Assembly (NCBI GenBank): GCA_007753675.1
Contig: CP036432.1
Location: forward strand, 7,690,233 to 7,754,232
Source of the DNA: Stieleria magnilauensis
GTDB taxonomy: Bacteria > Planctomycetota > Planctomycetia > Pirellulales > Pirellulaceae
Reading direction: 5' to 3'
Length of the DNA: 64,000 nucleotides
Part shown: piece after piece, positions 15,607 to 45,010 of the stretch
Position numbering within the stretch: the first letter of the stretch is position 1
How the letters are laid out: every line of letters begins with the position of its first letter
Made by a program: the position numbers and the translations under genes
Notes under the pieces: model-generated
Seen by the model: the letters and a program-made list of their open reading frames with translations, nothing else
What the model was told of the DNA's origin: nothing
The model's database searches: none

Positions 15607-16788
15607 TCACTGGTCGGCCAAACTGACGACGATCTGTGTCACTTCGTCCAGTCGTGACAGGAACGCGTCCAAGACCTTGGGGTCAAAATGTTTGCCGCGT
15701 TCTTTGCGCATGATTTCGATGCATTGATCCAGCGGCAAGGCGTCTTTGTAACAGCGTTTACTGCTGAGGGCATCGAAGACATCGGCGACGGCGGTGATCC
15801 GGCCGACGATCGGAATTTCCTCGCCGGCGAGTTGTTCCGGGTAGCCCGTTCCGTCCCAGCGTTCGTGGTGTGTTTTGGCGATCACCGATGCCATCCGCAA
15901 CACGGGCGACCGCGTCACGGGACGACGGGAATGGAGAAGAAACGGTTCGCTTTCGTCGCTCGGTTGGGCTTTGAGAATTTTTTCTCCGAACTCACAGTGA
16001 CGCTTCATCATCGCGAACTCGTCCTGGGAAAGCTTGTCCGGTTTCAACAGAATCGAATCGGCGATCCCGATCTTGCCGGCATCATGAAGGATGGCGGCGT
16101 GTTCGATCAGCTCGGAATCGGATTCTGAGCAACCCAGTTCTCGGGCGATGATTCCTGCGAATCGGCCGACCCGAATGACGTGGTTGCCGGTTTCCTGGTC
16201 GCGGTATTCCGCGGCACAGGCCAGCACGTGGATGACCTCTTCACGCGATTGGGCCAGATCGGCGGTCCGCTGGGCGACTTCGGCTTCGAGTCGTTTGGAA
16301 TAGGCGGCCATCTGGTCGTGGTGCGCCTTCAGCACCAACGAGTTGCGGACCCGGGGCAGCAGTTCGGTGGGCTTGACCGGTTTGTGCAAGAAGTCGGTGG
16401 CGCCCAATTCGAGTGCATCGATCTTAGTCTGTTCGTCCGTCGACGCCGTCACGATCAGAACCGGCAAATGCGACTGGTCGGGCGTGTTGCGAATCGTCTC
16501 CAGGATTTCCAGGCCCGTGACGTGCGGCATCACCACGTCTAACACCAGAATGTCCGGACGGGTCGAACGCACCAAATCGACCACCTCGCGAGACTCGCTG
16601 GTGGTGACAAAATCATGGTACCCCGAGCTGCGCAGATACTTCTGAATCAACTTGATGTTGATCGGTTCGTCATCGGCGATCATGACACGACCAGACTTTG
16701 TCGCCTCGGCCTCCTTCGACTTCAACGAAGCAGCACGTGTCATGGGTGCCGCGGCACCGGCTAACGTTGATGGAGTCGTCGCGTTCAT
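15607..16788 (-). CDS. Response regulator with HD-GYP domain (putative c-di-GMP phosphodiesterase)
   Basis: 393 aa. The frame is open from 16929, but ATG 16788 is favoured by a preceding GAAGGGCGG. Receiver domain at about 35-150: acidic pair in MIADDEP, phospho-acceptor Asp in ILVLDVVMPHVTGLE, and Lys in LHKPVKP. A short coiled-coil leads to an HD-GYP domain with HDAGKIGI and HHERWDGTGYP, the residues expected for metal binding and c-di-GMP hydrolysis. The gene follows the M50-HlyD gene on the same strand after a 198-bp gap. Control of surface protein display through c-di-GMP is possible but unproven. No partner kinase is adjacent. Confidence 0.93.
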   Translation of the reverse strand: MNATTPSTLAGAAAPMTRAASLKSKEAEATKSGRVMIADDEPINIKLIQKYLRSSGYHDFVTTSESREVVDLVRSTRPDILVLDVVMPHVTGLEILETIRNTPDQSHLPVLIVTASTDEQTKIDALELGATDFLHKPVKPTELLPRVRNSLVLKAHHDQMAAYSKRLEAEVAQRTADLAQSREEVIHVLACAAEYRDQETGNHVIRVGRFAGIIARELGCSESDSELIEHAAILHDAGKIGIADSILLKPDKLSQDEFAMMKRHCEFGEKILKAQPSDESEPFLLHSRRPVTRSPVLRMASVIAKTHHERWDGTGYPEQLAGEEIPIVGRITAVADVFDALSSKRCYKDALPLDQCIEIMRKERGKHFDPKVLDAFLSRLDEVTQIVVSLADQ

Positions 16789-16986
16789 CCGCCCTTCGGG
16801 TTGGCTAGAAAACTTCGCAGGTACTGTGCTCAAACTAAAACCAGTCTGCAGCAAACCGTAAGTCAATGTGTTGGTGTGAGAGGAGATGTTGGTAGGGCAG
16901 GCCCCGCGAACAAATTGGATTTTCGACACGGGCCCCTCGTTATCGTTAGATTCGATAGGATCCGATGAACGCGTCCGAACATGAAC

Positions 16987-19122
16987 CTACTCCATCCACT
17001 CGGCCAGCCGTTTCCACAGGTGCGATCCCACGGTCTCGTCGAGTGATCCGATCGAAACTTGTGCCCGCTGTCCGCTATACAAATCAACGCCTTGCGACGT
17101 GCTGAGCGGCACAATGGCCTCGAAATGCGGCACCAGCAATTCGAACTCCGGGCCGGATTGCGACGCATCGTTGGCAACTTGTTTGACCGGCAAAGGACCC
17201 CCGTTGGAGGCCAGTAGGGACGGATAATCCACACCCGTTCTGGCGCGGGGAATGATCTTGGCCAAGGACGAGGTGTTCGTCGCGAGTCCGCGGGCGCGAT
17301 AACGCACCGGTGCGCCCACCTGGTCACGAAACTGGTCGAACCGATCCTGCGAGATCAGCACACGCAACTCCTTTTGGGATTCGTCACCGATCACCAGCAA
17401 TTCATCGCCTTGGGCGACGTAGGTCCCTTCCAATTCATTCAACCGGCGACGGACCACGACACCGCTGCGGGGGGCACGGACGATCAGCGAATCGAGTTGT
17501 TCCTTCGCGTCCAGGTGTTGTTTTGTCAGAGCCTGCAGTTCGGTTGCCTCGGCCTGTGCGGCGGCGTGCCGACCTTGCAGCGTTTGTTGGCGGGTGCGGA
17601 GAGTCGATTGCTGGATTTTTGTTTCCAGCTTCCCTGCCTCCAGGACGAGGTCGGGGTTGCGAAGCGTCAACAGTTTTTGGCCCTCGGATACGCGTTGCCC
17701 CGCGGCAACATGGATCGTGTCCACAAAACCCGGCACTTCGGCGCGAATCACTTCGTGCGGTGAATACTCGACCACCGCGGGGACGGGGGCGGCGCCCGGC
17801 CAGGGGATTGCCGCCAACAGCGTCGTCAGCAATGCCGCCGATCCGGTCGCCACGCACGTGAATCGGCGACGTCCGCTGCGGGGAGCCTGGCGGAACAACT
17901 TGGCCACGCGCCAGGCGGGACCACCGATCCAAACGATGCAGGCGACGACGGCCAACAGTGTGCCCAGGCCATGGAACAGTTTCGTCGCGGCAATCGTCAG
18001 CCCGAAACAAACGAAACACTTCCACAGCAGTGCCAGCCAAGCGTAGACGGCAACCGCGATCCGGTAACCATCTTGCCAATTCGGTTCTTTCAACTCACCG
18101 CCGAAGAACCACCGCCGGGCCTGACGGGCCAAGTAGTTTTGGCTGTCTGTGTACAGATTCGGTGCCCGAACCCAATCGGTCAGTACAAAGTAGCCATCGA
18201 ACTTCATCAGCGGATTGGCATTGAAGATCAACGTCGCTACACCGGCCGACAACATCACGCTGATGCAAACGTGTTTGACCAGCGGTGAATCGGCCGATTG
18301 CCAAATCAGCATGGCGGTGGCGGCGACGAGCAGTTCCACATAGATCCCGGCCGACGCAACGTGAATGCGTTGCCAGCGGCGACGAAATCGCCAAACCGAA
18401 CTGACGTCGACGTAAGCCAGTGGCGCCAACAAGATGAACAGGACGCCCATCTGTCCGACATCTCCCCCGTAGCGTTTGCACACGATCGCATGCGCAAACT
18501 CGTGGAAGATCTTCAAGACGATTGTGACGGCCAGCAACAGAGTCAGTGCCGACGACGAAAACAAGTATTCCGAGGAATGCGTCAACTCGTTCCTGTGCAG
18601 GATCGCCAGGCAGCCGCCCAGCAGGATCAGCAAGATGCCGGCGGCGGTCGCCGGAAGCCCGAAGATCCAGCCGACGTACTTCATCATCTGTCCGATCAGG
18701 CGATCGGGATGAATCAGTGGGACACGAATCGCGATCGGATTGGCGTGCTGCTTGATTCGATTCGTTTTCGCTTTTTCGGTGGAGCGGTGAAGTCGAGCGG
18801 AGGATTTGGAGGACTCGGTGTGCGCCAGTTCGTTGTCGATCAGCCACCGACACAGGTCCGCCGCATCCTCTTCGGACAATTGATGGTCGGGATACTGTTC
18901 GCAGACTTCGCGATAGGCTTGGGCGATCGTGCGTGAGGCGGTCAGCCGAATGGCCAGCGCGTATTCGATTCTGCCGAGCCGATAAAACGAGCCCGCGACG
19001 GGGTCTTCGACGATCACGTGCGGTTGCCGTGCATCGTCACACGGTGTCAAACGCAAATCTTGTCGAAAGACGACGGACGTGGTGCTTTGGTCGCTGGCAA
19101 AATGCTGGTGGTTGTCTCGCAT
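16987..19122 (-). CDS. PqqD-like / M50 metallopeptidase / HlyD adaptor fusion protein
   Basis: 711 aa from ATG 19122, preceded by GGTGGTGA; ATG 19143 would overlap the upstream gene by 16 bp. Three parts are visible. Residues about 15-105 resemble a PqqD-like winged helix (VIVEDPVAGSFYRLGRIEY, then a helical part ending near NELAHTE). Residues 150-440 form a polytopic M50 region with HEFAH at 207-211 and NPLMKFDG at 303-310, the expected zinc ligands. From about 452 comes a HlyD/lipoyl-like hairpin (AEVPGFVDTIHVAAGQRVSE) with a coiled-coil. Proteins of this type accompany exporters. It may process or thread a secreted substrate and connect it to TolC. It is the last gene of the tolC-first operon. 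Confidence 0.85.
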   Translation of the reverse strand: MRDNHQHFASDQSTTSVVFRQDLRLTPCDDARQPHVIVEDPVAGSFYRLGRIEYALAIRLTASRTIAQAYREVCEQYPDHQLSEEDAADLCRWLIDNELAHTESSKSSARLHRSTEKAKTNRIKQHANPIAIRVPLIHPDRLIGQMMKYVGWIFGLPATAAGILLILLGGCLAILHRNELTHSSEYLFSSSALTLLLAVTIVLKIFHEFAHAIVCKRYGGDVGQMGVLFILLAPLAYVDVSSVWRFRRRWQRIHVASAGIYVELLVAATAMLIWQSADSPLVKHVCISVMLSAGVATLIFNANPLMKFDGYFVLTDWVRAPNLYTDSQNYLARQARRWFFGGELKEPNWQDGYRIAVAVYAWLALLWKCFVCFGLTIAATKLFHGLGTLLAVVACIVWIGGPAWRVAKLFRQAPRSGRRRFTCVATGSAALLTTLLAAIPWPGAAPVPAVVEYSPHEVIRAEVPGFVDTIHVAAGQRVSEGQKLLTLRNPDLVLEAGKLETKIQQSTLRTRQQTLQGRHAAAQAEATELQALTKQHLDAKEQLDSLIVRAPRSGVVVRRRLNELEGTYVAQGDELLVIGDESQKELRVLISQDRFDQFRDQVGAPVRYRARGLATNTSSLAKIIPRARTGVDYPSLLASNGGPLPVKQVANDASQSGPEFELLVPHFEAIVPLSTSQGVDLYSGQRAQVSIGSLDETVGSHLWKRLAEWME

Positions 19123-19127
19123 GACGT

Positions 19128-21035
19128 TCACCACCAGAACCATTGGGAGAGGGCTTCGATGGGTCGGTGAAACAGAATCCAGCCGAGTGCACGACGACCA
19201 CAAGCGATCTTCAGCGTGCCCTTCATTCCCGGACGCAACAGTTGTTCGTCGTTGGAAAGTTTGCATTCCGCGATGAACACGTTTTCTTCGTCACGAATTT
19301 CACTGCGTGGATTGACGATTCCGATCGTCGTGTCCCAGTTGCGATCGGGATAGGCGTTCAGTCGCAACTGGGCGGTTTGGTCCTTGCGGACGTACGCGAT
19401 CTGATCGTCTTTCACCGCCGCCTCGACGATCATTTCCAGCAGTGGCGCGATTTCAAACAGAGATTGACCGGTGGTCAGTGGGGCACCCTTGACGCGTTTT
19501 AGATCACCGGCGACGACCATCCCGTCGACGGGGCTGCGCAGTTCGAGTTCGCTTAATCGGAGATCCAGCAATTGAAGTTCGGATCGAAGCCCGTCGATTT
19601 CCAACTGGGCGATCCGCTGATCCGCGTAGGCGCGTGAGGCCTGGGCGGCGTCTCGTTTTTTGATCGCCTGGTCATGGTCGGCCTGCAGCGACTCTCGTTT
19701 CCACCTCAATTCGCGGCCGTCGAGCGTCGCCAGCAGATCGCCACGTCGGACAAGGTCGCCGGGCGCGACGAAACAGTCTTTGAGTGTCGCTTCGAAGGGC
19801 GCGGCCACGAAACGTTTGAAGCGGGGTTCGACACGCACGTCACAGCTTTCGCGGTGACGGAGCGGAACAAACATTGCGGCGATCAATGCGATCATGACCG
19901 TCAACGCAATCACGCCACCGCGTGATCGGACCGCTCGGACGCTGCGACGAAGTAAATCGGTTGAACGACGCTGATCGTGTGCGTGCAACACCGCCCCGAG
20001 TGACGGACCGGCCGCTTCGAAGAATTGTCGCATCGGCTGGACAGGCGATTCGGAATCCAAGATCGCCAGAAACACGGCGCACGTGTCTCTGGATTCATCG
20101 ACGAGCGGCACGGCCAAGACGCTGGCGGCATGTTGACGCGCCAATTCGCCGACGCTGCGCGACGCGTCCAGTTGGGTTGTTGTCGGTTCGACGATCGAGA
20201 TGGACCCCTGCATCAACGCTTCGTCCATGGCGTTTTCGATGGACCGTGTCTGGGCGGTCGTCGTATCGATTCGAGTCGAATCGCTGAGTGCGACCAATCG
20301 GCAACTGCCCGCCCCCGATGTCGCGATTCCGATCGCAGCACGGCAAAGGTTCCAGTGATCGGCCAGTTCGGTGACGATCACCTGACAGGCTTCGCTGCGA
20401 GTTTTCGAATCCAACGCCCGGGTGAGCAGGTCGACCGTGGCGGCGGCATGGGACGCGACGGCGGACTGTTGATCCAGGCGATGTTGAACGTTCCAGAGGG
20501 CGAACTGTTGGGCCAATGTGTGGACCGCTCGGGTGAAACCGTGCAAGTCCGCGGGCAACGCTGCGATCAAGCACAGGGCATCGGACGGTTGCCGCCCGGT
20601 GTCGATCGGCACGGCCAGGATGACTCGTTCGGGCTCAAGTTGTCGGCGGGAATGAATCTGGCCGCTGAGAGCAGATTGGTGACAGACCGAAATCAATTGC
20701 GTCCGTTGCGATGGGGACCTTTGTTCGGCCGGGTCGATCCGCAAGTGATGGAGTTGCTGCGACTTGTCGTTTGCGTTCGGCTGACAACGCACCACCGCAA
20801 GGATGGTGGAGAGTTCGTCGAGGCGTTCCAGCAGGATCTGGTCGGCTTCCTGGAGTGTGTTGGCCGATTGAAACGGAGACACGACCGGCGGATCGACGGT
20901 CGGATCAGCGACGTCGCGCGGCGTCGCGTGAATGCGGGTCGGCGTCGTCTCACGCGGGACCGATTCGTGCGTGACGGCGCCCACCAGGATGGGTGCAGCG
21001 AGGCCTGATCCGGCGTTGGGGATCTCGGTCGACAC
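19128..21035 (-). CDS. GAF-domain / HlyD-family membrane fusion protein
   Basis: 635 aa, starting at GTG 21035 with AAGGA about 10 bases upstream. Residues about 200-350 resemble a GAF domain (LLTRALDSKTRSEACQVI, later ASVLAVPLVDESRDTCAVF). A single membrane helix lies at about 374-392. The C-terminal third is a HlyD-type adaptor: lipoyl-like half motif (FEATLKDCFVAPGDLVRRGD), coiled-coil, then a second half (LRSPVDGMVVAGDLKRV) and a beta-barrel. The GAF part should be cytoplasmic and the adaptor periplasmic, so export may be tuned by a cytoplasmic ligand. It is 6 bp from the upstream adaptor gene and 5 bp from the M50 gene, so translation is tightly coupled. Confidence 0.85.
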   Translation of the reverse strand: MSTEIPNAGSGLAAPILVGAVTHESVPRETTPTRIHATPRDVADPTVDPPVVSPFQSANTLQEADQILLERLDELSTILAVVRCQPNANDKSQQLHHLRIDPAEQRSPSQRTQLISVCHQSALSGQIHSRRQLEPERVILAVPIDTGRQPSDALCLIAALPADLHGFTRAVHTLAQQFALWNVQHRLDQQSAVASHAAATVDLLTRALDSKTRSEACQVIVTELADHWNLCRAAIGIATSGAGSCRLVALSDSTRIDTTTAQTRSIENAMDEALMQGSISIVEPTTTQLDASRSVGELARQHAASVLAVPLVDESRDTCAVFLAILDSESPVQPMRQFFEAAGPSLGAVLHAHDQRRSTDLLRRSVRAVRSRGGVIALTVMIALIAAMFVPLRHRESCDVRVEPRFKRFVAAPFEATLKDCFVAPGDLVRRGDLLATLDGRELRWKRESLQADHDQAIKKRDAAQASRAYADQRIAQLEIDGLRSELQLLDLRLSELELRSPVDGMVVAGDLKRVKGAPLTTGQSLFEIAPLLEMIVEAAVKDDQIAYVRKDQTAQLRLNAYPDRNWDTTIGIVNPRSEIRDEENVFIAECKLSNDEQLLRPGMKGTLKIACGRRALGWILFHRPIEALSQWFWW

Positions 21036-21041
21036 GGGAAA

Positions 21042-21875
21042 TCAATCCTTCAATTGGATCGTGCAGCGGGCACCGCTGCGGAGGGTTCCGTCCGGATTGC
21101 TGATCGCAATTTTAACCAAAACGGTTCCGCTTTCGGCATCGGTCACCGGCGAGATGTAGTGGACGCGGCCGGAGATGGATTGCCCCGATTCGGTGAATTG
21201 AAGTTCGATTTCTTGGCCGGTGGTCAGCTGTTCGGCTTGGGGGCCGAGCAGTGAAAAATTGGCTAGCAGCGTGTCCAGCTGGACGAGCGTGATGACATCG
21301 GGTTTATTGGGCGCGACGAATTCACCGGGTTCTTTATGAAGTTCAGTGACGACTCCGCTGACCGGAGCCTGAATCTCGCGTCGCTTCATTTGCGTGAGCA
21401 ATCGTTGGTGTTCCAAACGACGCGTTTCCATTTCTTCGACGACGCTGCGAAGGTTGGCTTGGGCGACTTGGAATTCTTTGGCCGCGCGTTGCAATTCGGC
21501 TTGGCGGGCGTGTCCTGACTGACGCAGCGATTGGAGTTTTTCCAACCGTTGAGAGGTCAATTCGACTTCCGCCCGGGCCGCATCGAGCCGTCCCTCGGCA
21601 TTCATCTGCTGTTTGGCGACCTCCAACTGGGCCAAGTGGACTTGGCTGTTGAGCCGCAGCAACGGTTGGCCTTGCTCGACGGTCTGGCCTTGCCGGACCA
21701 ACACTTCGGCGACGGTCCCTGTTTCGTCCGATGCCACTTCGATCGTCCGGATCGGTTCGGTGTATCCCAGCACCTCGGTGGCGAGGGAATCCCGACATGA
21801 CAGTGCGATGATCGCGATCAAGACGGATTGGAAGGAGCGAATTCGCAGCTTAGAGGGGTGGTGGCAGAGTTTCAT
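21042..21875 (-). CDS. Periplasmic adaptor (HlyD/RND membrane fusion protein)
   Basis: 277 aa from ATG 21875; the frame opens at 21926. A signal sequence or anchor (about residues 10-30) is followed by a lipoyl-like half (ASDETGTVAEVLVRQGQTVEQG), a long alpha-hairpin rich in Glu, Gln and Arg (about 75-150), the second lipoyl half (IQAPVSGVVTELHKEPGEFV) and a beta-barrel domain. It should link an inner-membrane component to the TolC channel. It is shorter than typical RND adaptors (about 370 aa), lacking most of the membrane-proximal domain. It is separated from tolC by the 80-bp repeat array B. Confidence 0.88.
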   Translation of the reverse strand: MKLCHHPSKLRIRSFQSVLIAIIALSCRDSLATEVLGYTEPIRTIEVASDETGTVAEVLVRQGQTVEQGQPLLRLNSQVHLAQLEVAKQQMNAEGRLDAARAEVELTSQRLEKLQSLRQSGHARQAELQRAAKEFQVAQANLRSVVEEMETRRLEHQRLLTQMKRREIQAPVSGVVTELHKEPGEFVAPNKPDVITLVQLDTLLANFSLLGPQAEQLTTGQEIELQFTESGQSISGRVHYISPVTDAESGTVLVKIAISNPDGTLRSGARCTIQLKD

Positions 21876-22010
21876 GGCGTCGCGGCAAGCACAAATGGAG
21901 ACCGGGAAAACAAAGGCGGGCGGCAAGAATCACTTGCTCTGGGCAAGCTTAGGTCACCAATAAGTTGGCAGCACCGAGAAAGTCGCCCCCGTGAGAGGCG
22001 AAACAGCGGG

Positions 22011-22329: not shown

Positions 22330-22331
22330 AC

Positions 22332-24227
22332 TCAAGGAACGGTGTTGGACGCCGACCCGATCGGTTCGATTTGCAGCAGCGTGCCGGTCGCCCGCTTCAG
22401 CCGTGACGTGCTGAGCGTGTAGTCGATTTGCGCCCTGGCGAATCCGACTTCCTCCACCAGCAAGCGGTCTTGGGCATCGAGCAAGTCCTCCAGCAGGGAG
22501 TTGGCGGAATAGCCGTCTCCGGGCAGTTCACGCCATCGATTGGAGATCAGTTCGACGTATTGTTGTGCGGAAACCATCGCCACGTAGCGTGCTTCGAGTT
22601 CTCGGTGGCTGGTTTCGACTTCGCGGACCGCCGCGGCGACCTCGGCATGGAGTTTGGCGATCGTTTCACTCAACCGACTGGCAAGTTTACGCAGTTCTGC
22701 TTGACGGCGAAGGATGTTGGCCTTGGCGGCGCGGCGCTGCAACGGCACTTCAAACCGCAGCCCGGCGCTGTAGCTCGGTTCGCCGACGCTGAACTGGTCG
22801 ATCCAGGCACGGCCGATGTCTTGGCTGCCACGCAGTCCGCTGAAATAGGTTTCCAACACCAGGTCCAGCATGGGCAGCAGTTCGTTTTGGGCGACGTTCA
22901 AACGCACCCGAGCGGTATCCAGCTCGCGTGCGACTTCATTCATTTCACTCCGCTGTTGCAGGGCCGTGACCACGGCGTCTTCTAGCGACACGGGGACCAG
23001 GGCCAGCGAGGGGGGACGCACCGGGATGATCTCCGCCGTTTTGTCGCTGGTCAGTGCGGGAGAATTGACCAACATGCGGAGCTGATCTTCGGCGTTTCGG
23101 ATCGAAGTCACCGCTCGGGCAAGTTCGGAGTTGCGTGTGGCGACGGCGGCTTCGGCGCGTTTGAGTTGGCTTTGCAAGGCATCCAAACCCTGCCGCTGTT
23201 CCAGCCAATCGTGAATCGACTTGGCTTGATTGAGATGACGGATTCGCAAGAGCAGCGAGGCGCGCTGGTAATACAGGTTCCACATGGATTCCTGGACGGA
23301 AAGCAAGTGGTTTTGGATCGCGGTGGTGGCGGCTTCGCTTGCGATTTGGGTGTCAAGCTTCGCCAACACGATCAGGCTTCGATTGAACGCCCGGCCGGCT
23401 CCGTTGAGCAGCGGTTGATTGAAGCTGAGGGTCAGCCGGGAATTGCCTTGGTTGTTCGGCGTGAAGAATTGCGAACTACTGTCGCGCAACCCGATCTGCT
23501 GTCCGATCTCAAACTCGGCTCCGGTTTGAAGTTTGCGCCGCAGGCCGCCGGAGAACGAAAAATCTTCTTCTCTCAAACGGTCGACGTTGCTGCCCGCGTC
23601 GAGGTCGCTGCCGGTGGGGACGCTGGTGCGCAGGAATTTTGATTCGACAAACGCGGTCGGATCAAAATCGGCGGCCGCGCGAGTGATTCCGGTGCGGGCG
23701 ATGCAGATGTTTTCGTTGACCGCCGAGATGCGATAGCTGTGTCGCAAGGTCTCAAGGATCAGGCTGTCGCCATCGACGACGATCGAGGAAGGCGACAATT
23801 CAAATGGCGCCGTCGCGGTGGTTTCCCACCACGGACGAAAGTTGTCCGCAATCGGGGAACTTTCGGCCTGGGACTTCAAAAACTGGCGTACCGATTCGGG
23901 GGAAAGCGGCGTGTCGGTGTCGGACTTGGCGATCGATGTTTCGTTCAACCACTCGTCCGGCAAAGCACCAACCGTCAACGGAGGTGGTTCCGCACCCGAG
24001 TCGGTTGACGCTGGGGCGGAGTTTTGGGCCACGCGGATGCCGTGCTGCGCTTCGTCGCCGACAATTGGTTCGGCGAATACCTCTGTCAGTTCCGGCGATG
24101 GATCGAGGCTTCGCTGCGTCGGTGCAGAAAGCCACGACGGCAAATCATCCGTTTGCGCACCGGCCGATCCGGCGACCAAGCAGCAGGTCGCGATCGCGAT
24201 GTAGCGTTTGCAAACGGTTCGATTCAT
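22332..24227 (-). CDS. TolC-family outer membrane efflux protein
   Basis: 631 aa. ATG 24227 is chosen over the frame opening at 24344 because it starts a signal peptide (MNRTVCKRYIAIATCCLVAG) after a GGAG site. An N-terminal extension of about 190 residues (Pro/Ser-rich, then a small mixed segment) precedes the outer-membrane efflux region from about 200 on. Two OEP repeats are suggested by paired helical stretches, for example LLSVQESMWNLYYQRASL and ALQQRSEMNEVARELD. TolC proteins form trimeric channels for type I secretion or efflux. As first gene of the operon with three adaptor-type proteins, it probably forms the exit channel. No ABC ATPase gene is nearby. Confidence 0.92.
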   Translation of the reverse strand: MNRTVCKRYIAIATCCLVAGSAGAQTDDLPSWLSAPTQRSLDPSPELTEVFAEPIVGDEAQHGIRVAQNSAPASTDSGAEPPPLTVGALPDEWLNETSIAKSDTDTPLSPESVRQFLKSQAESSPIADNFRPWWETTATAPFELSPSSIVVDGDSLILETLRHSYRISAVNENICIARTGITRAAADFDPTAFVESKFLRTSVPTGSDLDAGSNVDRLREEDFSFSGGLRRKLQTGAEFEIGQQIGLRDSSSQFFTPNNQGNSRLTLSFNQPLLNGAGRAFNRSLIVLAKLDTQIASEAATTAIQNHLLSVQESMWNLYYQRASLLLRIRHLNQAKSIHDWLEQRQGLDALQSQLKRAEAAVATRNSELARAVTSIRNAEDQLRMLVNSPALTSDKTAEIIPVRPPSLALVPVSLEDAVVTALQQRSEMNEVARELDTARVRLNVAQNELLPMLDLVLETYFSGLRGSQDIGRAWIDQFSVGEPSYSAGLRFEVPLQRRAAKANILRRQAELRKLASRLSETIAKLHAEVAAAVREVETSHRELEARYVAMVSAQQYVELISNRWRELPGDGYSANSLLEDLLDAQDRLLVEEVGFARAQIDYTLSTSRLKRATGTLLQIEPIGSASNTVP

Positions 24228-24515
24228 GAAACACTCCGTCCGTGGAGTTGATGACGTGGGACACTTTGATCGTTCATCGGTTCGGAAGACCGTCGTTGGC
24301 TTCCGGCAGATGGCACAAGCCGGCCGCATTTCGGACTCGGTCACGCATCCTCGGAATGAAAGGCAAGCTCTTCAAGACTCGTCCAAACGGCTCAATCGTT
24401 ACGCCTTGCCTTGGCGTTGTCGCCATCTCGGCTTCATTGGCGCATCTTCGCCAATTGCTGACTTAGGGTAGGGGTGAATGGATCAGTTCCTCATCTGAAT
24501 TGTCGGGCTTAGGAA
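24228..24515. other. Divergent intergenic region between the export operon and the giant-protein genes
   Basis: 288 bp separate the tolC start (minus) from the first DUF4347 gene (plus), so promoters for both should lie here. I see no convincing -35/-10 pair or palindromic operator, and no ORF. Its position makes coordinate control of exporter and substrate plausible. Confidence 0.5.
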
Positions 24516-25141
24516 GTGCGCTGGCGTAAACGAAAATCAATTGGCGACTCAAGTTTCGTTCGTTCTACCGGATACCTGCTTGATGCTGCTGTGTTGGAAA
24601 AGCGTCTGTTGTTCAGCGCCACCCCGGTAGTGCCCGCCCCAGTTGACGGCGTCCCCTCCGATCACGAGTTGGCGGTACCGACCGTCGAACTGAATTTCTC
24701 GGACATGGCTTCCGCGGACACGGCTTCATCTGGCAATCCGTCCGGCAATTCGAGTGGTGATGCAGAACAGGCCGAACACGAGCGACAGCGATTGGAACTG
24801 GTCTTCGTCGACGCGGGCGTCCAAGATTATCAACAATTGATCGCCGATCTTCGCAGCGGCAACGAGCACGCCGACTTGGAGATCTATCTGCTCGACGCGA
24901 CGCGCGACGGTGTTCGTCAGATCGGCGAGATTTTGGACGGATATGTCGATGTCGATGCGGTTCACGTGCTTTCGCACGGCAACGACGGCAAGATTCGCCT
25001 CGGCAACACCGTGCTCGACGAACGAAATCTGGCCGGATACGCGGGCGAATTCGCCGGCTGGGCAGGCTCACTAAGTGATGACGCGGACTTGATGTTGTAC
25101 GGCTGTGAGCTGGCCGAAACGGTCGACGGCAGGACGATGCT

Positions 25142-38200: not shown

Positions 38201-41038
38201 GGCGATGCCATCGTCACGATGTCGGCCGCGTCCAACCAGGACGATCGGGAGTTCCTGATGTGGGGGAACAACGATGCTGCGTTGGGTGAAGTGACCGCAG
38301 AGCCGGCAGGCGTGGCGGATCGACTCGCCCGCATCTGGCGCGTCGACGAGACGGGCGACGTCGGAACCACGACGATCACGTTTGATCTGAGCGGGTTGAC
38401 CTACACCGGCACAACGGCGGCGGATTTTAATCTCATTGTCGATGGCGATGCGGATTTCAGCAGCGGTGCGTCGCTGGTTGCCGCAACCAGTTACAACGCG
38501 GGATCCAAGCTCGTCACGTTCACGGGCGTCAACCTGGCTGACGGAAACTATTTCTCGTTGGGCACGTCGATTGCGGTCAACGTCGCTCCGACAATCAACA
38601 ACCTGGCCGGCGACACGCTCAATTACAGCGAAAGCGATGCGGCGACGGTGATCGAACAGGGAACCAACGTTACGGTCAGCGATGGCGACTCGACAGACTT
38701 CGACACAGGAAACCTGACCGTGTCGGTTTTCGCCGGAGGTGATGCCGCCGAAGATGTCTTGGCCGTCCGCGATCAAGGCCCTGGCGTGGGCAACATCAGC
38801 GTTTCCGGCAGCAGTGTCTTGTATGACTTTGGCGGCGGCCCCGTCGTGATCGGCACGATGACCGGCGGCACCGCCGGTGCGGATTTGGTGGTCACGTTCA
38901 ACGCCAACGCCACAGCGATCTCCAGCGACGCATTGATCGAGAACATCACCTACCGGAACACCGACACCGACCAACCCACCAATTCGTCGCGAACCATTCG
39001 TTTCACACTCGATGACGGCGACGGCGGCACCAGCGCCGCGCGCGATGTAACGGTGAACGTGGCCTCGGTCAACGATTCGCCGGCGTTCAGTGGCCTTGAC
39101 CATACACCGACGTTTGTCGAAGGCGGATCGGCGGTGATCTTGGACAACAACGCCACCATCGCGGATGCGGAATTGGGGGCGGCCGATGACTTTAGCGGGG
39201 CAACCCTGTCGTTGGTGCGAAACGGCGGCGCCAACGCCGACGACGTGTTTGACGGCAGCGGAACGCTTGATCCGTTGGTCCAGGGCGGCAACCTGGTTGT
39301 CGGCGCGACCACCATCGGAACCGTCACCACGAACAGCGGTGGCCTGTTGGTACTGACGTTTAACAGCAACGCCACTGCCGCACGGGTGAACAGCGTCCTG
39401 CAACAGATTTCGTATGCCAACAGCAGCGTCATGCCGCCATCGAGCGTTCAAGTTGACTTCACATTCGATGACGGAAATGCGGGGGCCCAGGGCAGCGGCG
39501 GTGCTTTGAATGATCTCGGTTCGGTCACCGTCAATCTCACGTCCGTCAATGCGGCTCCGACGATCGATCTGGACGCGAACAATTCCAGCGGTGCGACCGG
39601 TGCAGACTTCGACACAACGTTCACCGAAGGCGGCGGGCCGGTCGCGATCGCCGACTCGGCCGACGCAGTGCTCGCCGACATTGATTCGCCCAGCCTGACC
39701 CAACTGTCCGTCGTGATCAGCAACATGTTCGACGGGGCCAGCGAATCGCTCTCGGCGGACACCAGCGGAACCTCCATCACCGCCACCTATGCCGCCGGCA
39801 CGTTGACACTTTCCGGAACTGACACGGTCGCCAACTACCAGCAAGTCCTGCGAACGATTGCCTACAACAACAGTTCGGCCAATCCGGACGCGACCACTCG
39901 GCTGATTCAATTCGTCGCCCATGACGGTTTAGCCAACAGCAACGTGGCAACGGCTCGCGTCGACATCGTGACCGTCAACGACGCGCCGACGGCAGCGGAC
40001 GACAACTTTGTCACGCAAGTCGGCAAAACACTGACCATCGGTGCCGGCGGATTGCTCGCCAACGACTTCGATTTGGACGGCAATGCGTTGACGGTGATCC
40101 CTGTCTCGGGGCCGATCACGGGGACACTGACACTGGCCGCCGATGGCTCGTTTCAGTTCACGCCGGCGGCAAACTTCACGGGATCGATCACGTTTACCTA
40201 CGCCGTGACCGACGGTATCGCGACGAGCGCCCCGACGACGGTCACGATTCAAGTCGCCAAGCCCAACGACCTCAGCGAGGTCACACCGGCGGACATTTTG
40301 AGTGCCGGCCCCGATCCAGAACCTGAGCCGGAAACATTGCCGGAACCGCCGGTCGACGAAGAGGATTCCGAGGGCGAAAGTGAATCAGAGCTTGCCACGG
40401 CGATTCTTCCAGACGCGATTCTGAACCCTGACGTTCCGTTGGTGTTGACCGGAGGCGCGGTCATTCAGACGACGGACGACGAAATCTTGACGCTGAGCAT
40501 CATGCCCACCAGCACGCCGGACCTGACCGATGCCGTCCAGGAGTCGGAGCGAATCGCCAGTTTGTCCGATAGCGAGACTGGCCGTGTCAGCCGCCAGTCA
40601 CGAATCGACTCAACCCGCGCAAGTGTTTCAATCCTTGGGATCGCCAAATTCGACAGCAAGCTACTTTGGGGCGACATGGAGAATCTGCAAGACGATATCA
40701 AACAATCGGATATCGCGCCGTACTACTTCGCAGGCACGTTCGCGGGTTTCTCCGGCGCCCTTTCGGTCGGCTATGTGATGTGGACCGTTCGTGGTGGTTT
40801 GTTGGCGACCAGCTTATTGGCTCATTTACCGGCCTGGAGTTTTGTCGACCCACTGCTTGTCCTGAACGAATTGGACGATGACGACGACACGGACGACGAC
40901 TCTTTAGAAGAAATGTTGGACAAGACCGAAAAAGAACGAGAGAACAGCGGACCGGTTGAGACGGAGGGCCAGACGGTGCTCCAGCCAGTGCTCCAGCCAG
41001 TGCTTCAGCCAACGGGATCCGGGGAAACCGTTATATGA
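32207..41038 (+). CDS. Giant LEPR-XLL/DUF4347 multidomain surface protein (2943 aa)
   Basis: Intact, from ATG 32207. N-terminus: basic stretch and LLDAAVLEKRLLFSATP (LEPR-XLL-like). DUF4347 at about 83-250 with FVSHG (His145) and YGCDLA (Cys188). Then an SdrD-B/Cna-like domain (256-413), a right-handed beta-helix (425-764), a CSLREA-type segment with a second beta-helix (768-1118), three repeats of about 157 aa (1233-1715), a LamG-like module ending in YLAIKYGLTL and beyond (1723-2123), a fourth repeat (2128-2286), cadherin-like modules and a tandem-type module (2293-2683), and an acidic linker. Near the C-terminus a hydrophobic segment (about 2851-2888) is almost identical to that of the upstream paralogue. 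The protein is probably a cell-surface adhesin or carbohydrate-binding protein. The last 4 bases overlap the histidine kinase gene. Confidence 0.93.
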   Translation: MPWLSRKRKNDSSLAGRGRHLLDAAVLEKRLLFSATPIAPPVDLASTGVDVDEPEAIDVTAADTVSDVGSGKQSDDQSQQSRRLELVFVDAGIEDYQQLLDDLRSDRGNADLEIYLLDGARNGIDQVGEILSGYTDVDAVHFVSHGTQGQFQLGNTWLSIDNLDAHAGSIASWNDSLRDGADLLIYGCDLAASDDGRALVRSLGELCNCDVAASDDKTGQQTLGGDWDLEFVVGGIDTDIAFGSPLQREWYGLLAGSRIDGKIYEDVNGNGDVADDGVGVGGVTVDIYLDDGTTVDAPDSGDSLVGTDTTNVTGAYSINGLADGTYWVIVHSLQIAPDAGFNFGYAQGDVWAEQTFGDTGSVSFDGVSYSFSGAAGAHFGGMQAGVSDDATSLTTAQHVTRVVLSGSNVTVDYGFSFQSVSHTADADHDLVNNRFSQGSLRQAVLNDNAVVGASTIALPAGTYTNALATDMGVLDDLTLNGADRSTTIIDGAGVSRSFDVNGTLNLSDATIQGGGGYTKGGAIHVSSGGVVDLARVVLTGNTADQGAAIFNGGVLTATDVDISGNTGGGGSPTGGGIHNTEDLTLNRVTIRNNTAEFGGGIYVANSSSNVSLTNVTISGNSVSGAGEGGGIWTRAAVNLVNSTIASNTAVDGGGIFNDDSGPVVTITNTLIGDNTASVNPDVFGGFTSDGSNLIENTTGGTGFDPGDITGVDPNLNPLADNGGYTLTHALQRTSQARDNGTTVGAPAIDQRGKSRYAAYDIGAFELPSLIVTTADDVLDAPDSSTISALLSNKGGDGEISLREAILAANGTVGLDEIHFDIAGAGPHVINIDAILGALPTITEAVVIDGYTQTGASANTLAVGNDAVLKIAIDGFPSGLSVDGLTLASSGSTIRGLNIRGFKKSGIEITANGNTIVGNFIGTNITGTSAISNDDAAINVLSANNQIGGAAPADRNVISGNKLEGILIAGSGNNGNTIQGNYIGTTADGLSNLQNQAEGIYIQNGSSNNQIGGSGAGEGNLISGNKKSGIHLKDATTTGNIIQGNLIGVDRDGNSSLAMSNEASAIVSDGNNNVFGGSDPGEGNTISSLEPLKHGIELGGGTGNLISGNSIFDVSGSGIFLVPASGANTEPTPLTLANAATTGTTLSIDGTYSEGPGVTLIVDFFSNPTSATEEGKVYLGSDTFVTDGSGTFTSLITATVPVGDYITATHRNSGNNTAAFSNNFQAVGAGPPVITGLAGDTLSYSEGDGAKVIEQGVNAVVTDGDSADFDTGNLTVAILAGGDASEDLLSIRDQGPGVGNISVSGSNVLYDFGGGPIVIGSFTGGTAGADLVVTFNANATAVSADALIENITYQNTDTDNPTTSARTIRFTLNDGDGGTSANYDTTVNVAAQNDVPTISNLAGDTLNFTEGNSATVIEQGGDVTVSDVDSADFAAGSLTVSVVAGGDASEDVLAIRDQGPGVGNISLSGGNVLYDFGGGPVGIGTSSGGSAGADLVVLFNANANATAVDALIENITYQNVDTDNPTTASRTIRYTLNDGDGGSSADHDTTVNVAAVNDAATLADIAGDGFAYIQGAGALVIDQGGDAVVADVDSADFNSGSLSVSIAAGNDASEDVLAIRNQGTNPTEISVVGSSVFYNFGAGSVLIGTWAGGSGGADLVVTLNSSADATATSALLRNITYENTDTVAATTGTRTIRFTVNDGDGAVSLNHDATVNVVQGAPGGVLSGLALWLRADAGVTIGLGGVSQWENQVTNATLSDLQQVLATQRPDLIASGLNFNPIISFDGIDDHLADLTVLGSDLFGTDSASLFLAGSTNGSNGVMLQWIDTLSNRVNLEDDIRFDFGDLTNDQLTASAPSAGYHIINAQTAPGSPAGLSINIDGRQTASGNASVGAPLDNTQFGQFFLGEYPGGGFNDDLDVGEIVIFKTDLSATDRLKVDSYLAIKYGLTLDQTTGTNYLDSMGAVVWNAATNTGYDNDIAGIGQDNASMLAQGQSRSDNGDAIVTMSAASNQDDREFLMWGNNDAALGEVTAEPAGVADRLARIWRVDETGDVGTTTITFDLSGLTYTGTTAADFNLIVDGDADFSSGASLVAATSYNAGSKLVTFTGVNLADGNYFSLGTSIAVNVAPTINNLAGDTLNYSESDAATVIEQGTNVTVSDGDSTDFDTGNLTVSVFAGGDAAEDVLAVRDQGPGVGNISVSGSSVLYDFGGGPVVIGTMTGGTAGADLVVTFNANATAISSDALIENITYRNTDTDQPTNSSRTIRFTLDDGDGGTSAARDVTVNVASVNDSPAFSGLDHTPTFVEGGSAVILDNNATIADAELGAADDFSGATLSLVRNGGANADDVFDGSGTLDPLVQGGNLVVGATTIGTVTTNSGGLLVLTFNSNATAARVNSVLQQISYANSSVMPPSSVQVDFTFDDGNAGAQGSGGALNDLGSVTVNLTSVNAAPTIDLDANNSSGATGADFDTTFTEGGGPVAIADSADAVLADIDSPSLTQLSVVISNMFDGASESLSADTSGTSITATYAAGTLTLSGTDTVANYQQVLRTIAYNNSSANPDATTRLIQFVAHDGLANSNVATARVDIVTVNDAPTAADDNFVTQVGKTLTIGAGGLLANDFDLDGNALTVIPVSGPITGTLTLAADGSFQFTPAANFTGSITFTYAVTDGIATSAPTTVTIQVAKPNDLSEVTPADILSAGPDPEPEPETLPEPPVDEEDSEGESESELATAILPDAILNPDVPLVLTGGAVIQTTDDEILTLSIMPTSTPDLTDAVQESERIASLSDSETGRVSRQSRIDSTRASVSILGIAKFDSKLLWGDMENLQDDIKQSDIAPYYFAGTFAGFSGALSVGYVMWTVRGGLLATSLLAHLPAWSFVDPLLVLNELDDDDDTDDDSLEEMLDKTEKERENSGPVETEGQTVLQPVLQPVLQPTGSGETVI
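35905..39069 (+). repeat. Four in-gene repeats of about 475 bp
   Basis: Repeats at about 35905-36375, 36390-36865, 36880-37350 and, after a LamG-like insertion, 38590-39069. Each encodes LAGDTL...VIEQG, ASEDVLAIRDQGPGVGNIS, LYDFGGGP, GADLVVTFNAN, ALIENITYQNTDTD and RTIRFTLNDGDGG. Repeats 1, 2 and 4 are closest; 3 is most diverged and lacks the GPGVGN segment. Confidence 0.9.
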
Positions 41039-44025
41039 ATTTTTTGAGACTCAACGCCAAAACGCGTATCTCGCTCGGGTTGGTCTGCATGCTGCTGTCG
41101 GTGCTGTCCGGAGCGATGATGCTGGGACTGGTGCCGGAACGCGAGTCGGCGATTCGTGAAGGACGCGGTAATCTTTGCGAAACAATCGCGCTGACCAGTT
41201 CGGAATACATCTCGTACGGCGAAACCCGTCGCTTGGACCAATTGCTTGAGGCGGTGGTCGAGCGAAACGATGATGTCGTTTCCGCTGGTGTTCGCCGGGC
41301 CAACGGAGACTTGGTGTCGGTGTTCGGTCATCACGAATCGGTCTGGCCGAAGGATGAATCGAGTCGGTCGACCGACACGCACGTCCGCGTTCCGATTCGT
41401 AGCGGCAAGGACCGCTGGGGAGCGGTGGAGTTGTGTTTTCGTTCGTTGCATGACGACAGTTGGATGGCAACGTTCACCGACCCTTGGATGCTGCTGACCG
41501 TATTCGTCTGCCTAGCGAGCTTTCTGCTGTTTCAGCTCTACTTGAAGAAGATGCTGGCCCACTTGGATCCCTCCAAAACGGTTCCCAAGCGAGTGCGGAC
41601 GGCACTCGACAATCTCGCCGAAGGTCTGCTGGTGTTGGATCGACAGGGGCGTGTCGTGTTGGCCAATCAGTCCTTCGCCGATTGGGTCGGCAGCGAAGCC
41701 GACAAGCTATTGGGCAAGAAAGCAGACGAGTTGCCCTGGAATTTGGATCACCTGGAAGGTTCGCCGTGGCACGAAGCGGTGATCTCCGAATCGGTGGTTT
41801 CGGGGGGCATGATCGAGCTGAAGCAACCCGGACAACCGGCTCGGACGCTGATCGCAAACGCCTCGCCCGTGCAGGGCAGCGAAGGCAAGTGTCGTGGCGT
41901 GCTGGTCAGTTTCGATGACGTGACTCAATTGGAGGAAACCAAACGTGATCTGACCGTCGCCAAGCGCGCCGCCGACGATGCCAATCGCGCCAAGAGCGAG
42001 TTCTTGGCACGCATGAGCCACGAAATCCGAACGCCGATGAATGCCATCTTGGGCTACACCGACGTGCTGCGTCGCGGGTTCGACACGTCCGTGACCGATC
42101 GCCAGGAATACCTTGATACGATTCATGGCAGCGGCGAACACCTGCTCGCGTTGATCAACGACATCTTGGATTTGTCCAAGGTCGAATCCGGGCAGATGGA
42201 ACTGGAACTGGGGCCTTGCTCGCCGTACAAATTGATCAAAGAAGTCGTTTCCTTGCTCCGCAGCAAGGCCGACGAGAAAGGCATCTCGCTCAAATTCCGC
42301 AATGAAGGTCTGTTGCCCAAGACGATGCAGGGCGACTCGGTTCGTCTGCGGCAAGCGATCATGAACCTCGCCGGCAACGCGATCAAGTTTACCGACCAAG
42401 GCGGTGTTGAAATCGTCGCGCGGATCGATCAAGACGCGTCCAAGCGACGAAGCGACGAAAACCTGGTCTTGGCCATCGACGTCACCGATACCGGGATCGG
42501 GATTTCACCCGAAGCCCAAGCCAAGGTGTTTGAGCCGTTCGCCCAAGCGGACACGTCGATCACCCGGCGGTTCGGCGGCACCGGGCTCGGGCTGGCGATC
42601 AGCAAGCAACTCGCCGAAGCGATGGGCGGCGATATTTCATTGGTCAGCACACCGGGCGAAGGCACCACCTTTACGATTCGAATCACCATCGGAAGCGCCG
42701 ACGAACTGGAACTGGTTGACCCCGCCGACCAGGCCGAGGCCGAAGAGGAATCCGCGTCGGGCAAAGCCAAGGTGCGGCAGTTGCCGCCCTGCAAGATCCT
42801 GGTCGCCGACGACGGTTCTCCCAACCGAAAACTGTTGCAGTTGGTACTCGGCCAAGCCGGCGCCGAAGTTGTCGCGGTGGAAAACGGCCAGCAGGCCATC
42901 GACGCGACGAACGAACAGTCATTCGACATCATCCTGATGGACATGCAGATGCCGGTGATGGACGGTTACACCGCGACGCGCCAGTTGCGTTGCTCCGGGT
43001 ACAGCAAACCGATTTTTGCACTGACCGCCAACGCGATGCAGGGCGATCAGGAAAAGTGCTTCGATGCGGGCTGCAGCGGGTTCTTGTCCAAGCCGATCAA
43101 AATCGATCATCTGCTGGAAACCTTGGCCGAGGAACTCGGAGACGAACCGGGCGCAGTAACCACCGAGGCCACTCAGGCCGATGGGGCCACGGCCGACGAG
43201 TCCATGGCCGACGAGTTACAGTCCGTGCCCTCACCGGAGAGTGGTGCGGTCGACCCGCCGGTTGAGACCGCCGCCGAAGACGAAGGGAGAATCACGTGCA
43301 GTTATCCCCTGGATGATCCCGACTTCTTGGAAATCGCGCAGGACTTTGTCGACGCATTGCGTTCGCGATTGCCCCAGCTCGATCAGCTGCTCGACGATTG
43401 TGACTTTGATGCCCTGGCCGCTGAATCACACTGGCTCAAAGGCGTCAGCGGAAGCGCGGGCTTTGAACAGTTCGTCGATCCCGCCTTTGCCCTCGAGCGG
43501 CACGCCAAGGCCGGTGATGCCGCCGCCTGTCAGCAGCCACTGAAACGACTGCACAACCTCGCCTCACGCATCGATCTGCCCGGTGACGTCGCCGATTCAC
43601 CACTTGAGACAATCGAGCCGAGTCGCGAGACGCCCCGGCAAGAGTCGCCGCGGCAAGACGTTCCCTCAGGAGCCGTTTCGGTGCCAACTGTTTCAAGCGA
43701 ATCAGCAGATCAACCCGAGCAGCCGATTCACTCCACGCTGCCGATGGATGACCCGGAGTACCGCGAGATCGTGATCGATTTCCTGCAGCGATTGGACGGC
43801 AAACTGTTGGACATGGATGCTGCCATTGATCGGCAGCAATGGGACGACGTGGCGTCGCTGGCACACTGGCTTCGCGGAACCAGCGGTTCGCTGGGGCTGC
43901 CGCAGTTCAGTACACCGACGTTGGCGATGGAGCGATTCGCCGAGTCGGCCGATCCGCAGGCAACCCGGTTGATCATGCAGGATATCCACGGGATCGCCAA
44001 GCGAATTGTGGTTCCGGTCGCTTGA
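41035..44025 (+). CDS. Hybrid sensor histidine kinase with receiver and two HPt domains
   Basis: 996 aa; ATG 41035 overlaps the stop of the giant protein gene (ATGA), so the two are co-transcribed and translationally coupled. Two membrane helices (11-33 and 150-169) enclose an extracytoplasmic sensor region of about 115 residues. A PAS-like domain lies at 185-300. HisKA carries His329 in ARMSHEIRTPMN, and HATPase_c has N-box NLAGNAIKF, DTGIGI (485-490) and GGTGLGL (514-520). The receiver has Asp636 in ILMDMQMPVMDGY and Lys in LSKPIK. Two HPt domains carry His799 (HWLKGVSGSAG) and His944 (HWLRGTSGSLG). All phosphorelay residues are present. The output regulator is not encoded next to it. The signal may be the state of the giant protein. 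Confidence 0.95.
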   Translation: MNFLRLNAKTRISLGLVCMLLSVLSGAMMLGLVPERESAIREGRGNLCETIALTSSEYISYGETRRLDQLLEAVVERNDDVVSAGVRRANGDLVSVFGHHESVWPKDESSRSTDTHVRVPIRSGKDRWGAVELCFRSLHDDSWMATFTDPWMLLTVFVCLASFLLFQLYLKKMLAHLDPSKTVPKRVRTALDNLAEGLLVLDRQGRVVLANQSFADWVGSEADKLLGKKADELPWNLDHLEGSPWHEAVISESVVSGGMIELKQPGQPARTLIANASPVQGSEGKCRGVLVSFDDVTQLEETKRDLTVAKRAADDANRAKSEFLARMSHEIRTPMNAILGYTDVLRRGFDTSVTDRQEYLDTIHGSGEHLLALINDILDLSKVESGQMELELGPCSPYKLIKEVVSLLRSKADEKGISLKFRNEGLLPKTMQGDSVRLRQAIMNLAGNAIKFTDQGGVEIVARIDQDASKRRSDENLVLAIDVTDTGIGISPEAQAKVFEPFAQADTSITRRFGGTGLGLAISKQLAEAMGGDISLVSTPGEGTTFTIRITIGSADELELVDPADQAEAEEESASGKAKVRQLPPCKILVADDGSPNRKLLQLVLGQAGAEVVAVENGQQAIDATNEQSFDIILMDMQMPVMDGYTATRQLRCSGYSKPIFALTANAMQGDQEKCFDAGCSGFLSKPIKIDHLLETLAEELGDEPGAVTTEATQADGATADESMADELQSVPSPESGAVDPPVETAAEDEGRITCSYPLDDPDFLEIAQDFVDALRSRLPQLDQLLDDCDFDALAAESHWLKGVSGSAGFEQFVDPAFALERHAKAGDAAACQQPLKRLHNLASRIDLPGDVADSPLETIEPSRETPRQESPRQDVPSGAVSVPTVSSESADQPEQPIHSTLPMDDPEYREIVIDFLQRLDGKLLDMDAAIDRQQWDDVASLAHWLRGTSGSLGLPQFSTPTLAMERFAESADPQATRLIMQDIHGIAKRIVVPVA

Positions 44026-44136
44026 GTGTGTCATAGTCGCTCGCGGCAGCCGAAGCGTTGAATTGGAACGCACACCCTGTGACGCCGACGCACGTTTCTG
44101 TGCGGTGATCGTCGGACTTTCATTTTTTGTTCTTGC

Positions 44137-44151
44137 TGGCACGGCATGTGC
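44137..44151 (+). promoter_or_regulatory. Sigma-54 (-24/-12) promoter-like site upstream of the CBS gene
   Basis: TGGCACGGCATGTGC matches the consensus TGGCACG-N4-TTGC at all positions except one (GTGC for TTGC), with the GG and GC dinucleotides correctly spaced. A T-rich run lies just upstream. Transcription would start about 50 bases before ATG 44213. No enhancer site was identified. Confidence 0.45.
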
Positions 44152-44212
44152 GGAAAGCGATCGGTATAACAAGTTCTGCACTCGCCGACGTTTTTTCACA
44201 AGGGACTCAACG

Positions 44213-44695: not shown

Positions 44696-44752
44696 TCTAA
44701 TATCAGGTGTGTCCCACCCCTGTGAAAGCGATTTGGCGAGAACAGCTCTGCA

Positions 44753-45010
44753 ATGCGAAACGAACTCGAAGAAGCCCTCCGACAACTGCATACGGCGCTG
44801 GAGTCGATTGAGACCCTGGAGCCCGATGAGGCGGAGCGGCTTCGTCGTGCCGTGGCTGAGATTTCCGGCACCCTGGACGAACAGGAAGTCGATTCGGCGA
44901 CCCTGGCCAAACGGTTGCAGGAGCAAACCGATGCGTTCCAGGAGTCCCATCCCGTGCTGACCCAAACCGTCGGCCGGATCGCCGACATGTTGGCGCAGAT
45001 GGGCATCTAA
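44753..45010 (+). CDS. DUF4404 family protein
   Basis: 85 aa from ATG 44753. An all-helical, Glu- and Leu-rich small protein (LRQLHTALESIETLEPDEAERL near the start, ESHPVLTQTVGRIADMLAQMGI at the end) that matches the DUF4404 pattern. Function is unknown; the composition suggests a helical bundle or coiled-coil oligomer in the cytoplasm. It starts 57 bp after the CBS gene and is probably in the same operon. Confidence 0.88.
   Translation: MRNELEEALRQLHTALESIETLEPDEAERLRRAVAEISGTLDEQEVDSATLAKRLQEQTDAFQESHPVLTQTVGRIADMLAQMGI

Follow-up and report, generated by a model that had tools for sequence, protein, structure and literature searches.

The window analyzed here, a 64,000-nucleotide stretch of the Stieleria magnilauensis genome (positions 7,690,233-7,754,232 of a single contig of 10.77 Mb), carries a minus-strand operon of exporter-type genes and, divergent from it, two genes for giant proteins of the LExRxLL/DUF4347 type. 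The operon probably encodes the envelope components of a machine dedicated to export (a probability of about 0.7 appears reasonable), the cargo of which would be the adjacent LEPR-XLL/DUF4347 giant. This reading starts from features that are observed directly in the genomes, namely conserved linkage, domain content, an intact protease motif, a C-terminal module and the pairing of giants with sensors. The locus type itself is already known; the probable cargo, the SecA-less form of the operon and the giant-sensor pair appear to be new.

Read from 24344 to 16987, the operon comprises, all on the minus strand, genes for a TolC-family outer membrane protein (TolC/OEP; 22332..24344; Pfam, 1.1e-19), a short periplasmic adaptor (21042..21926; RND_mfp, 3.9e-39), a large HlyD adaptor of the GAF-HlyD family (P0006; 19128..21035; assigned by domain profiles) and a PqqD-like/M50 site-2-protease/HlyD fusion (P0005, hereafter M50-HlyD; 16987..19266; assigned by domain profiles and a structure model). 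The tight operon described in the initial annotation of the window was recovered for the last three genes, and TolC stands apart, 405 bp from the short adaptor. The fusion had been recognized correctly: P0005 matches HlyD_3 (1.1e-12) and Peptidase_M50 (2.7e-6), and its PqqD-like end is indicated by the match of the family profile to the solved PqqD structure 3g2b (E-value 1.9e-4) and by a structure model of high confidence (mean pLDDT 87.8), in which the N-terminus forms an ordered domain. The best 50 of the 482 Foldseek matches to this model are membrane-fusion proteins, and the M50 and PqqD-like parts were not placed by them. The true start of P0005 is probably inside the annotated open reading frame (ORF). 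For P0006, previously described as a GAF-HlyD fusion, the HlyD part is present; a search up to E 1 gave no GAF match in the window copy, and GAF was detected in its relatives (5.1e-13 in locus L117, 3.2e-8 in L145). Because the HExxH and NxN...D motifs are invariant in all 54 aligned M50-HlyD relatives, the M50-HlyD protein likely cuts a substrate. The domain scans reported no ABC or RND family for the window proteins that they covered, in agreement with the initial claim that an ABC ATPase and an RND pump are lacking; an ABC partner encoded at a distant site of the chromosome lay outside these scans.

The linkage of giants with M50-HlyD was examined in the family to which the window belongs, using 80 genomes, eight of them single-contig; M50-HlyD is found in 79 of these genomes and DUF4347 in 42. 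For the linkage test, 11 of the 134 DUF4347 rows (second fragments, partial or weak matches, including the one in genome G022) and 4 of the 86 sensor rows (fragments) were dropped, the length of genome G072 was rounded to 7.5 Mb, and those M50-HlyD genes with scores of 230 bits or more, among the 154 rows used (four from the search of the own genome), were considered close. In the single-contig genomes, 12 of the 22 close M50-HlyD genes are located within 20 kb of a DUF4347 gene, among the matches listed, whereas 0.65 would be expected by chance, and a count of 12 was not attained in any of 20,000 random placements; the conserved neighborhood, for which the initial annotation had proposed a permutation test of this kind, was thus recovered. 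Across all 80 genomes, and again among the matches listed, 27 of the 70 close M50-HlyD genes are near DUF4347, as opposed to none of the 84 more distant ones. Counted per genome on the same matches, DUF4347 and close M50-HlyD occur together in 35 genomes, the former alone in 6, the latter alone in 7 and neither in 32 (Fisher test, 1.3e-9; DUF4347 in 41 genomes, G022 with its partial match being left out). In a tree of 57 M50-HlyD proteins, a single supported group of 21 contains every one of the 14 sequences linked to DUF4347, its other 7 members being unlinked; the link label requires 7 changes on this tree, and none of 500 shuffles was as low. Because L101, which is close by bit score, falls outside this group, the 230-bit split is a score cut rather than a clade. 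In the 20 family loci that were mapped (picked from M50 matches, many for a nearby DUF4347, so that counts on them do not represent prevalence), the giant gene mostly points away from the genes for TolC, adaptor, large adaptor and M50-HlyD, and other orders occur as well. The notion of a module dedicated to the giants, put forward at the outset, is well supported by gene neighborhood and co-occurrence.

Beyond the family of the window, 84,980 species genomes were scanned with the M50-HlyD alignment, which yielded at least 590 relatives, and 80 loci were kept (hereafter GTDB loci). These loci come mostly from Pseudomonadota, and also from Myxococcota, Thermodesulfobacteriota, Nitrospirota, Omnitrophota and Rokubacteria; 75 of them encode a SecA-like protein, 77 a large HlyD adaptor, and 3 contain an ABC sequence motif. 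The LEPR search covered 47 of these loci in 46 genomes (48 had been picked, L149 being left out), largely picked for a large ORF beside the module, a choice that favors giants, and found a LEPR-XLL match (E-value of 0.05 or less) in 41 of the 46 genomes vs 1 of 14 control genomes. The matches usually belong to open frames of 2,000 to 14,400 amino acids and, by coordinates alone, irrespective of contig, 38 of the 47 loci have one no more than 6 kb from the module (the match is probably on another contig in L200 and L204, and another match in the same genome also fits). A second family (around L151; 198 genomes) is independent of this choice of loci, although it was picked as module-rich and includes three genomes already known as holders (G237, G240, G247). 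LEPR-XLL is found in 22 and M50-HlyD in 26 of its genomes: the two coincide in 18 genomes, M50-HlyD stands alone in 8, LEPR stands alone in 4 (with weak matches in three of them), and 168 have neither (Fisher test, p 6e-16). An M50-HlyD gene lies on the same contig within 4 kb of 17 of the 26 LEPR genes in this family, and within 12 kb of 18.

The same set is also found in Escherichia coli, where plasmid pABWA45_1 (L113) carries collinear genes for a giant (a DUF4347/Ig-like, that is, immunoglobulin-like, protein of 4457 amino acids), TolC, adaptor, HlyD and M50-HlyD; the four-gene part of the set matches 24 of 5,426 complete E. coli genomes, with 21 of the 25 places on plasmids. No SecA was found in the L113 stretch that was fetched, and no ABC genes beside the set. 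In two alphaproteobacterial loci (L116 and L117), a DUF3467 gene immediately precedes the gene for the large HlyD adaptor.

Many of the related operons contain ORFs of about 650 residues, eight of the nine tested being SecA relatives with DEAD, preprotein-binding and P-loop domains and no match to SecA_SW (the ninth is on the wrong strand and gave no match), and all 10 copies that were aligned share an unchanged GEGKT stretch. Such a gene is present in 9 of the 20 mapped family loci, and two secondary SecA copies are encoded elsewhere in the S. magnilauensis genome, at 10.38 Mb (in another M50-HlyD operon) and at 8.04 Mb. G022 (91% complete), the only family genome without M50-HlyD, has only a canonical-type SecA match. 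A conserved locus with a secondary SecA_DEAD protein has been described before, unnamed and with a role called "completely unknown" (Kamneva, Poudel and Ward, 2015; PMC4452313), so that the initial statement that no named system has this composition has to be qualified: the core locus has been in print since 2015, although without a name. That paper proposes SecA as the ATPase and M50 as the membrane part, and the idea of M50 replacing the pump is thus already there; it lists M50-HlyD, GAF-HlyD, an HlyD adaptor, sometimes OEP, and no ABC transporter. Methylobacterium extorquens AM1 is among the bacteria with the locus, its genes META1p2399-2402 being named there. Compared with this description, the window has M50-HlyD, the HlyD adaptor and OEP and lacks SecA_DEAD without SecA_SW in the locus; the window operon is therefore a SecA-less relative of the published locus and not a full member. 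The paper names no cargo and does not contain the words DUF4347, cadherin or giant; the LEPR-XLL/DUF4347 giants, the giant-sensor pair and the SecA-less operons, including that of the window, lie beyond the published account. No later naming of a cargo for this type of locus was found among the papers listed by the searches of open-access literature.

Both ends of the giants bear on how they could be handled. The intact giant of the window (gene 2; P0002, 2943 amino acids; 32207..41038, plus strand) contains LExRxLL, DUF4347 (PF14252, 6.7e-52; 176 bits vs the gathering cut-off of 24.6), cadherin/Ig-like domains and a C-terminal helix; its LEKRLLFSA motif (32285..32311, plus strand) has no hydrophobic signal-peptide core nearby. 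The same holds for the 23 LEPR giants compared, whose start codons were set by rule: none has a hydrophobic core around LExRxLL (the highest 19-residue mean ranges from 0.29 to 1.23), and in many a K/R-rich sequence precedes the motif. An alignment of 20 giant C-termini revealed a common module with an invariant P.W...DP (40607..40921 in gene 2, plus strand). This module occurs at 77 places in 35 of the 80 family genomes, and that of the window giants had no Pfam match in the scans of the window proteins. The C-terminal helix was also considered as a universal export signal and rejected: by eye it is missing from the giants of L113, L126, L134 and L137, and the profile matches 2 of the 80 GTDB loci. 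The giants of L126, L134 and L137 form a second DUF4347 class with a mutually similar C-terminus of another kind, and all three adjoin modules that retain SecA (L098, L094 and L096).

The giants that carry the C-terminal module are often followed by a sensor gene. In the window, this is a hybrid kinase (41035..44025, plus strand) with an N-terminus of the membrane/periplasmic type followed by PAS, HisKA, HATPase, REC and two Hpt domains, and its start overlaps the stop of giant gene 2 by 4 bp (41035-41038), an overlap already pointed out in the initial annotation. A sensor gene follows the module on the same strand within 2 kb at 50 of the 77 places, in 30 genomes, which supports the earlier suggestion of a kinase paired with the surface protein, at least as a conserved gene pair. 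In the single-contig genomes, 14 of the 25 modules have a same-strand sensor within 3 kb vs 0.03 expected, and in the GTDB locus L213 the sensor frame starts directly after the stop of the giant. The sensor N-terminus occurs in two fusions, one with kinase, receiver and Hpt domains and the other with GGDEF-HD-GYP. Immediately adjacent to the operon of the window, 57 bp downstream of the M50-HlyD gene, Pfam identifies a REC-HD-GYP response regulator of the cyclic di-GMP (c-di-GMP) phosphodiesterase type (15607..16929, minus strand), relatives of which (47-62% identical) are encoded just downstream of the kinase in L124, L128, L129 and L135, that is, in 4 of the 5 kinase loci seen whole outside the window, L133 being the exception. 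The regulator therefore probably belongs to the module. Most of the sensor outputs examined involve HD-GYP domains; given the HD-GYP partners of the kinase form and the GGDEF-HD-GYP form, c-di-GMP is likely to be the common output of the giant-paired sensors.

Taken in sequence, the steps of export, cargo recognition, cleavage, anchoring and sensing that we infer would be as follows. The unfolded giant would be presented via its N-terminal LExRxLL segment rather than a Sec signal peptide, and pushed by the SecA-like ATPase without scaffold/wing domain that is encoded in most related loci; for the window, this ATPase would presumably be supplied in trans, from the copies at 10.38 or 8.04 Mb. 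The PqqD-like/M50/HlyD protein could take up the giant at the inner membrane and perhaps cut it there, and the HlyD adaptors and TolC would bring it outside. In one class of giants, the conserved C-terminal helix of membrane type may hold the protein on the inner membrane, and the sensor encoded downstream would read the state of the giant and alter c-di-GMP via HD-GYP or GGDEF-HD-GYP. In its strongest form, which we advance tentatively and would rate at somewhat less than even odds, this scheme would amount to a separate class of Gram-negative secretion, with a SecA-derived motor, giants led by LEPR-XLL, and a site-2-protease/adaptor fusion plus TolC, where the PqqD-like domain reads the leader, M50 cuts, and the C-terminal helix of one cargo class anchors the protein and reports to a c-di-GMP sensor. 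LEPR-XLL giants are among the largest bacterial proteins, and the link would provide two orphan groups with a testable function. The predicted route would be a non-Sec, non-ABC one for proteins of about 2,000 to 14,000 residues, with a relative of SecA and an active protease in the membrane. The pairing with a sensor also points to a means by which cells may register that a giant is in place.

Several observations weigh against this export scheme. In the 80 family genomes, only 29 of the 123 DUF4347 genes have a close M50-HlyD gene within 20 kb (among the matches listed), and in S. magnilauensis itself only 1 of the 7 M50-HlyD genes adjoins a DUF4347 gene; given this sparse adjacency, many giants would have to rely on a module acting in trans or on some other arrangement. 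The second family includes the 8 genomes with M50-HlyD and no LEPR match and the 4 with the reverse pattern. With regard to the motor, the SecA-like gene is absent from 11 of the 20 mapped family loci and from the window (best match, E 0.61), and in G079, which is 80% complete and encodes four M50-HlyD proteins, no secondary SecA could be clearly recognized (best match, 4.7e-107). The structure model of the C-terminal module, a single long helix, is of low confidence (pLDDT 62.5); the helix is only moderately hydrophobic, and the module was detected in just 2 of the 80 GTDB loci (L213 and L176). Finally, NF012209, the LEPR-XLL model of 24 positions, finds only 9 of 157 genomes of the Planctomycetota group. 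A SecA remnant between TolC and the short adaptor was also looked for in the window and rejected, that stretch yielding nothing better than the same E 0.61.

Given these difficulties, the giants might instead leave the cytoplasm by some other route, with the M50 protein and the adaptors trimming, retaining or releasing them in the envelope in a Lap-like manner. This is an unlikely explanation in our view, although the zinc motif invariant in 54 of 54 M50 sequences, the resemblance of the M50 core to leader proteases of ribosomally synthesized and post-translationally modified peptides (NF041824, 1.7e-49), the HD-GYP and GGDEF domains encoded beside the giants and the SecA-less operon of the window would all fit it. 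The SecA-like gene in 75 of the 80 GTDB loci and the set of three adaptors and TolC resemble a motorized conduit instead, the giants have no Sec-type hydrophobic core, and the ABC motif is found in just 3 of the 80 loci. It is considerably less probable that giants and operon simply co-reside in surface-protein islands or on plasmids and work apart, the operon exporting small molecules or peptides: plasmid-borne copies do exist, and many DUF4347 and M50-HlyD genes are not neighbors, but the linkage extends across several phyla with differing gene orders, presence and absence track each other over the 198 genomes of the second family, and the 84 distant M50-HlyD genes show no adjacency to DUF4347 among the matches listed. 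Action of M50-HlyD and its PqqD-like domain on a short ribosomal peptide, as in the epipeptide and daptide pathways, seems highly improbable despite the PqqD-like domain and the similarity to daptide proteases, the common neighbor found being the giant gene (short precursor peptides and modification enzymes were not searched for).

The dedicated export machine that we favor resembles several characterized systems in part. Type I secretion relies on HlyB, HlyD and TolC, and LapBCE serves giant adhesins. The module shares with it HlyD adaptors plus TolC, giant repeat proteins as the presumed cargo and the lack of a Sec signal peptide, but no ABC ATPase was found, most loci encode a SecA-like ATPase, and an adaptor is fused to a site-2 protease. 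RND tripartite efflux differs in that it would call for an RND inner-membrane pump, no gene for which was reported among the window proteins scanned. In the Lap system (LapA/LapD/LapG), a giant adhesin, an envelope protease and c-di-GMP act together, and the protease controls retention. Here, too, genes for a giant adhesin-like protein, an envelope protease and c-di-GMP signaling are found together, but the protein families are different, and the candidate anchor is a C-terminal helix as opposed to the N-terminal retention module of Lap. The daptide and epipeptide proteases (NF041824 and NF058609) have a similar M50 core with a preceding PqqD-like region; unlike them, M50-HlyD carries a C-terminal HlyD adaptor fusion, and the score of P0005 against NF041824 (1.7e-49, 169 bits) is under the curated cut-off of 300 bits.

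Among the genes flanking the operon and giants, the CBS and DUF4404 proteins, which the initial annotation placed in the set together with the HD-GYP regulator, are indeed present in the window; as described above, the regulator probably belongs to the module, whereas the other two look like bystanders. A tblastn search (E-value 1e-8) of 53 related or own-genome loci of 14-20 kb revealed no match to CBS, DUF4404 or FeoB, although the short DUF4404 could be missed, and all three were rejected as parts of the module. The sulfatase was rejected as well, with only weak tblastn matches, two in L140 and one in L099.

Gene 1 departs from the initial description of two tandem intact DUF4347 giants: it is broken by an IS1182-family element, and only gene 2 is intact. 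Its N-terminal piece (24516..25148, plus strand) contains the LExRxLL segment (LEKRLLFSA, 24594..24620, plus strand) and DUF4347 positions 1-111; the remainder (27137..32062, plus strand) contains the end of DUF4347 (positions 110-164), PKD and cadherin/Ig-like domains and the C-terminal helix, with its copy of the conserved module at 31625..31960 (plus strand). The insertion (25149..27131, minus strand; transposase at 25304-27121, NF033551, 5.7e-98) is flanked by a probable target duplication, GGCC, at 25145..25148 and 27132-27135, and, by coordinate arithmetic, the two halves of the gene are one base out of frame after removal of the element and one GGCC. At an E-value of 0.001, the N-terminal piece of gene 1 gave no NF012209 match, although the LExRxLL motif is visible by eye; over the whole genome this model matches one place, in another giant (E-value 9.8e-4). 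It was dropped as a census tool in Planctomycetota (9 of 157 genomes), being too short for the planctomycete form of LEPR.

Tandem arrays of two or three DUF4347 giants are also present at L030-L032 (own genome, 9.73-9.76 Mb), in G077 (contig C3, 476-544 kb) and in G013 (contig C1, 802-840 kb). A more distant M50-HlyD operon of the own genome (L025, from 13634) lies beside another giant, the N-terminus of which carries LETRRVLN and which gave no match to DUF4347. Identical copies of the IS1182-family element are found at 3571-5570 of the window and in L023 (3063-5057), which suggests that the element was recently active and that its target is palindromic; all three copies are flanked by GCGGCC and GGCCGC.

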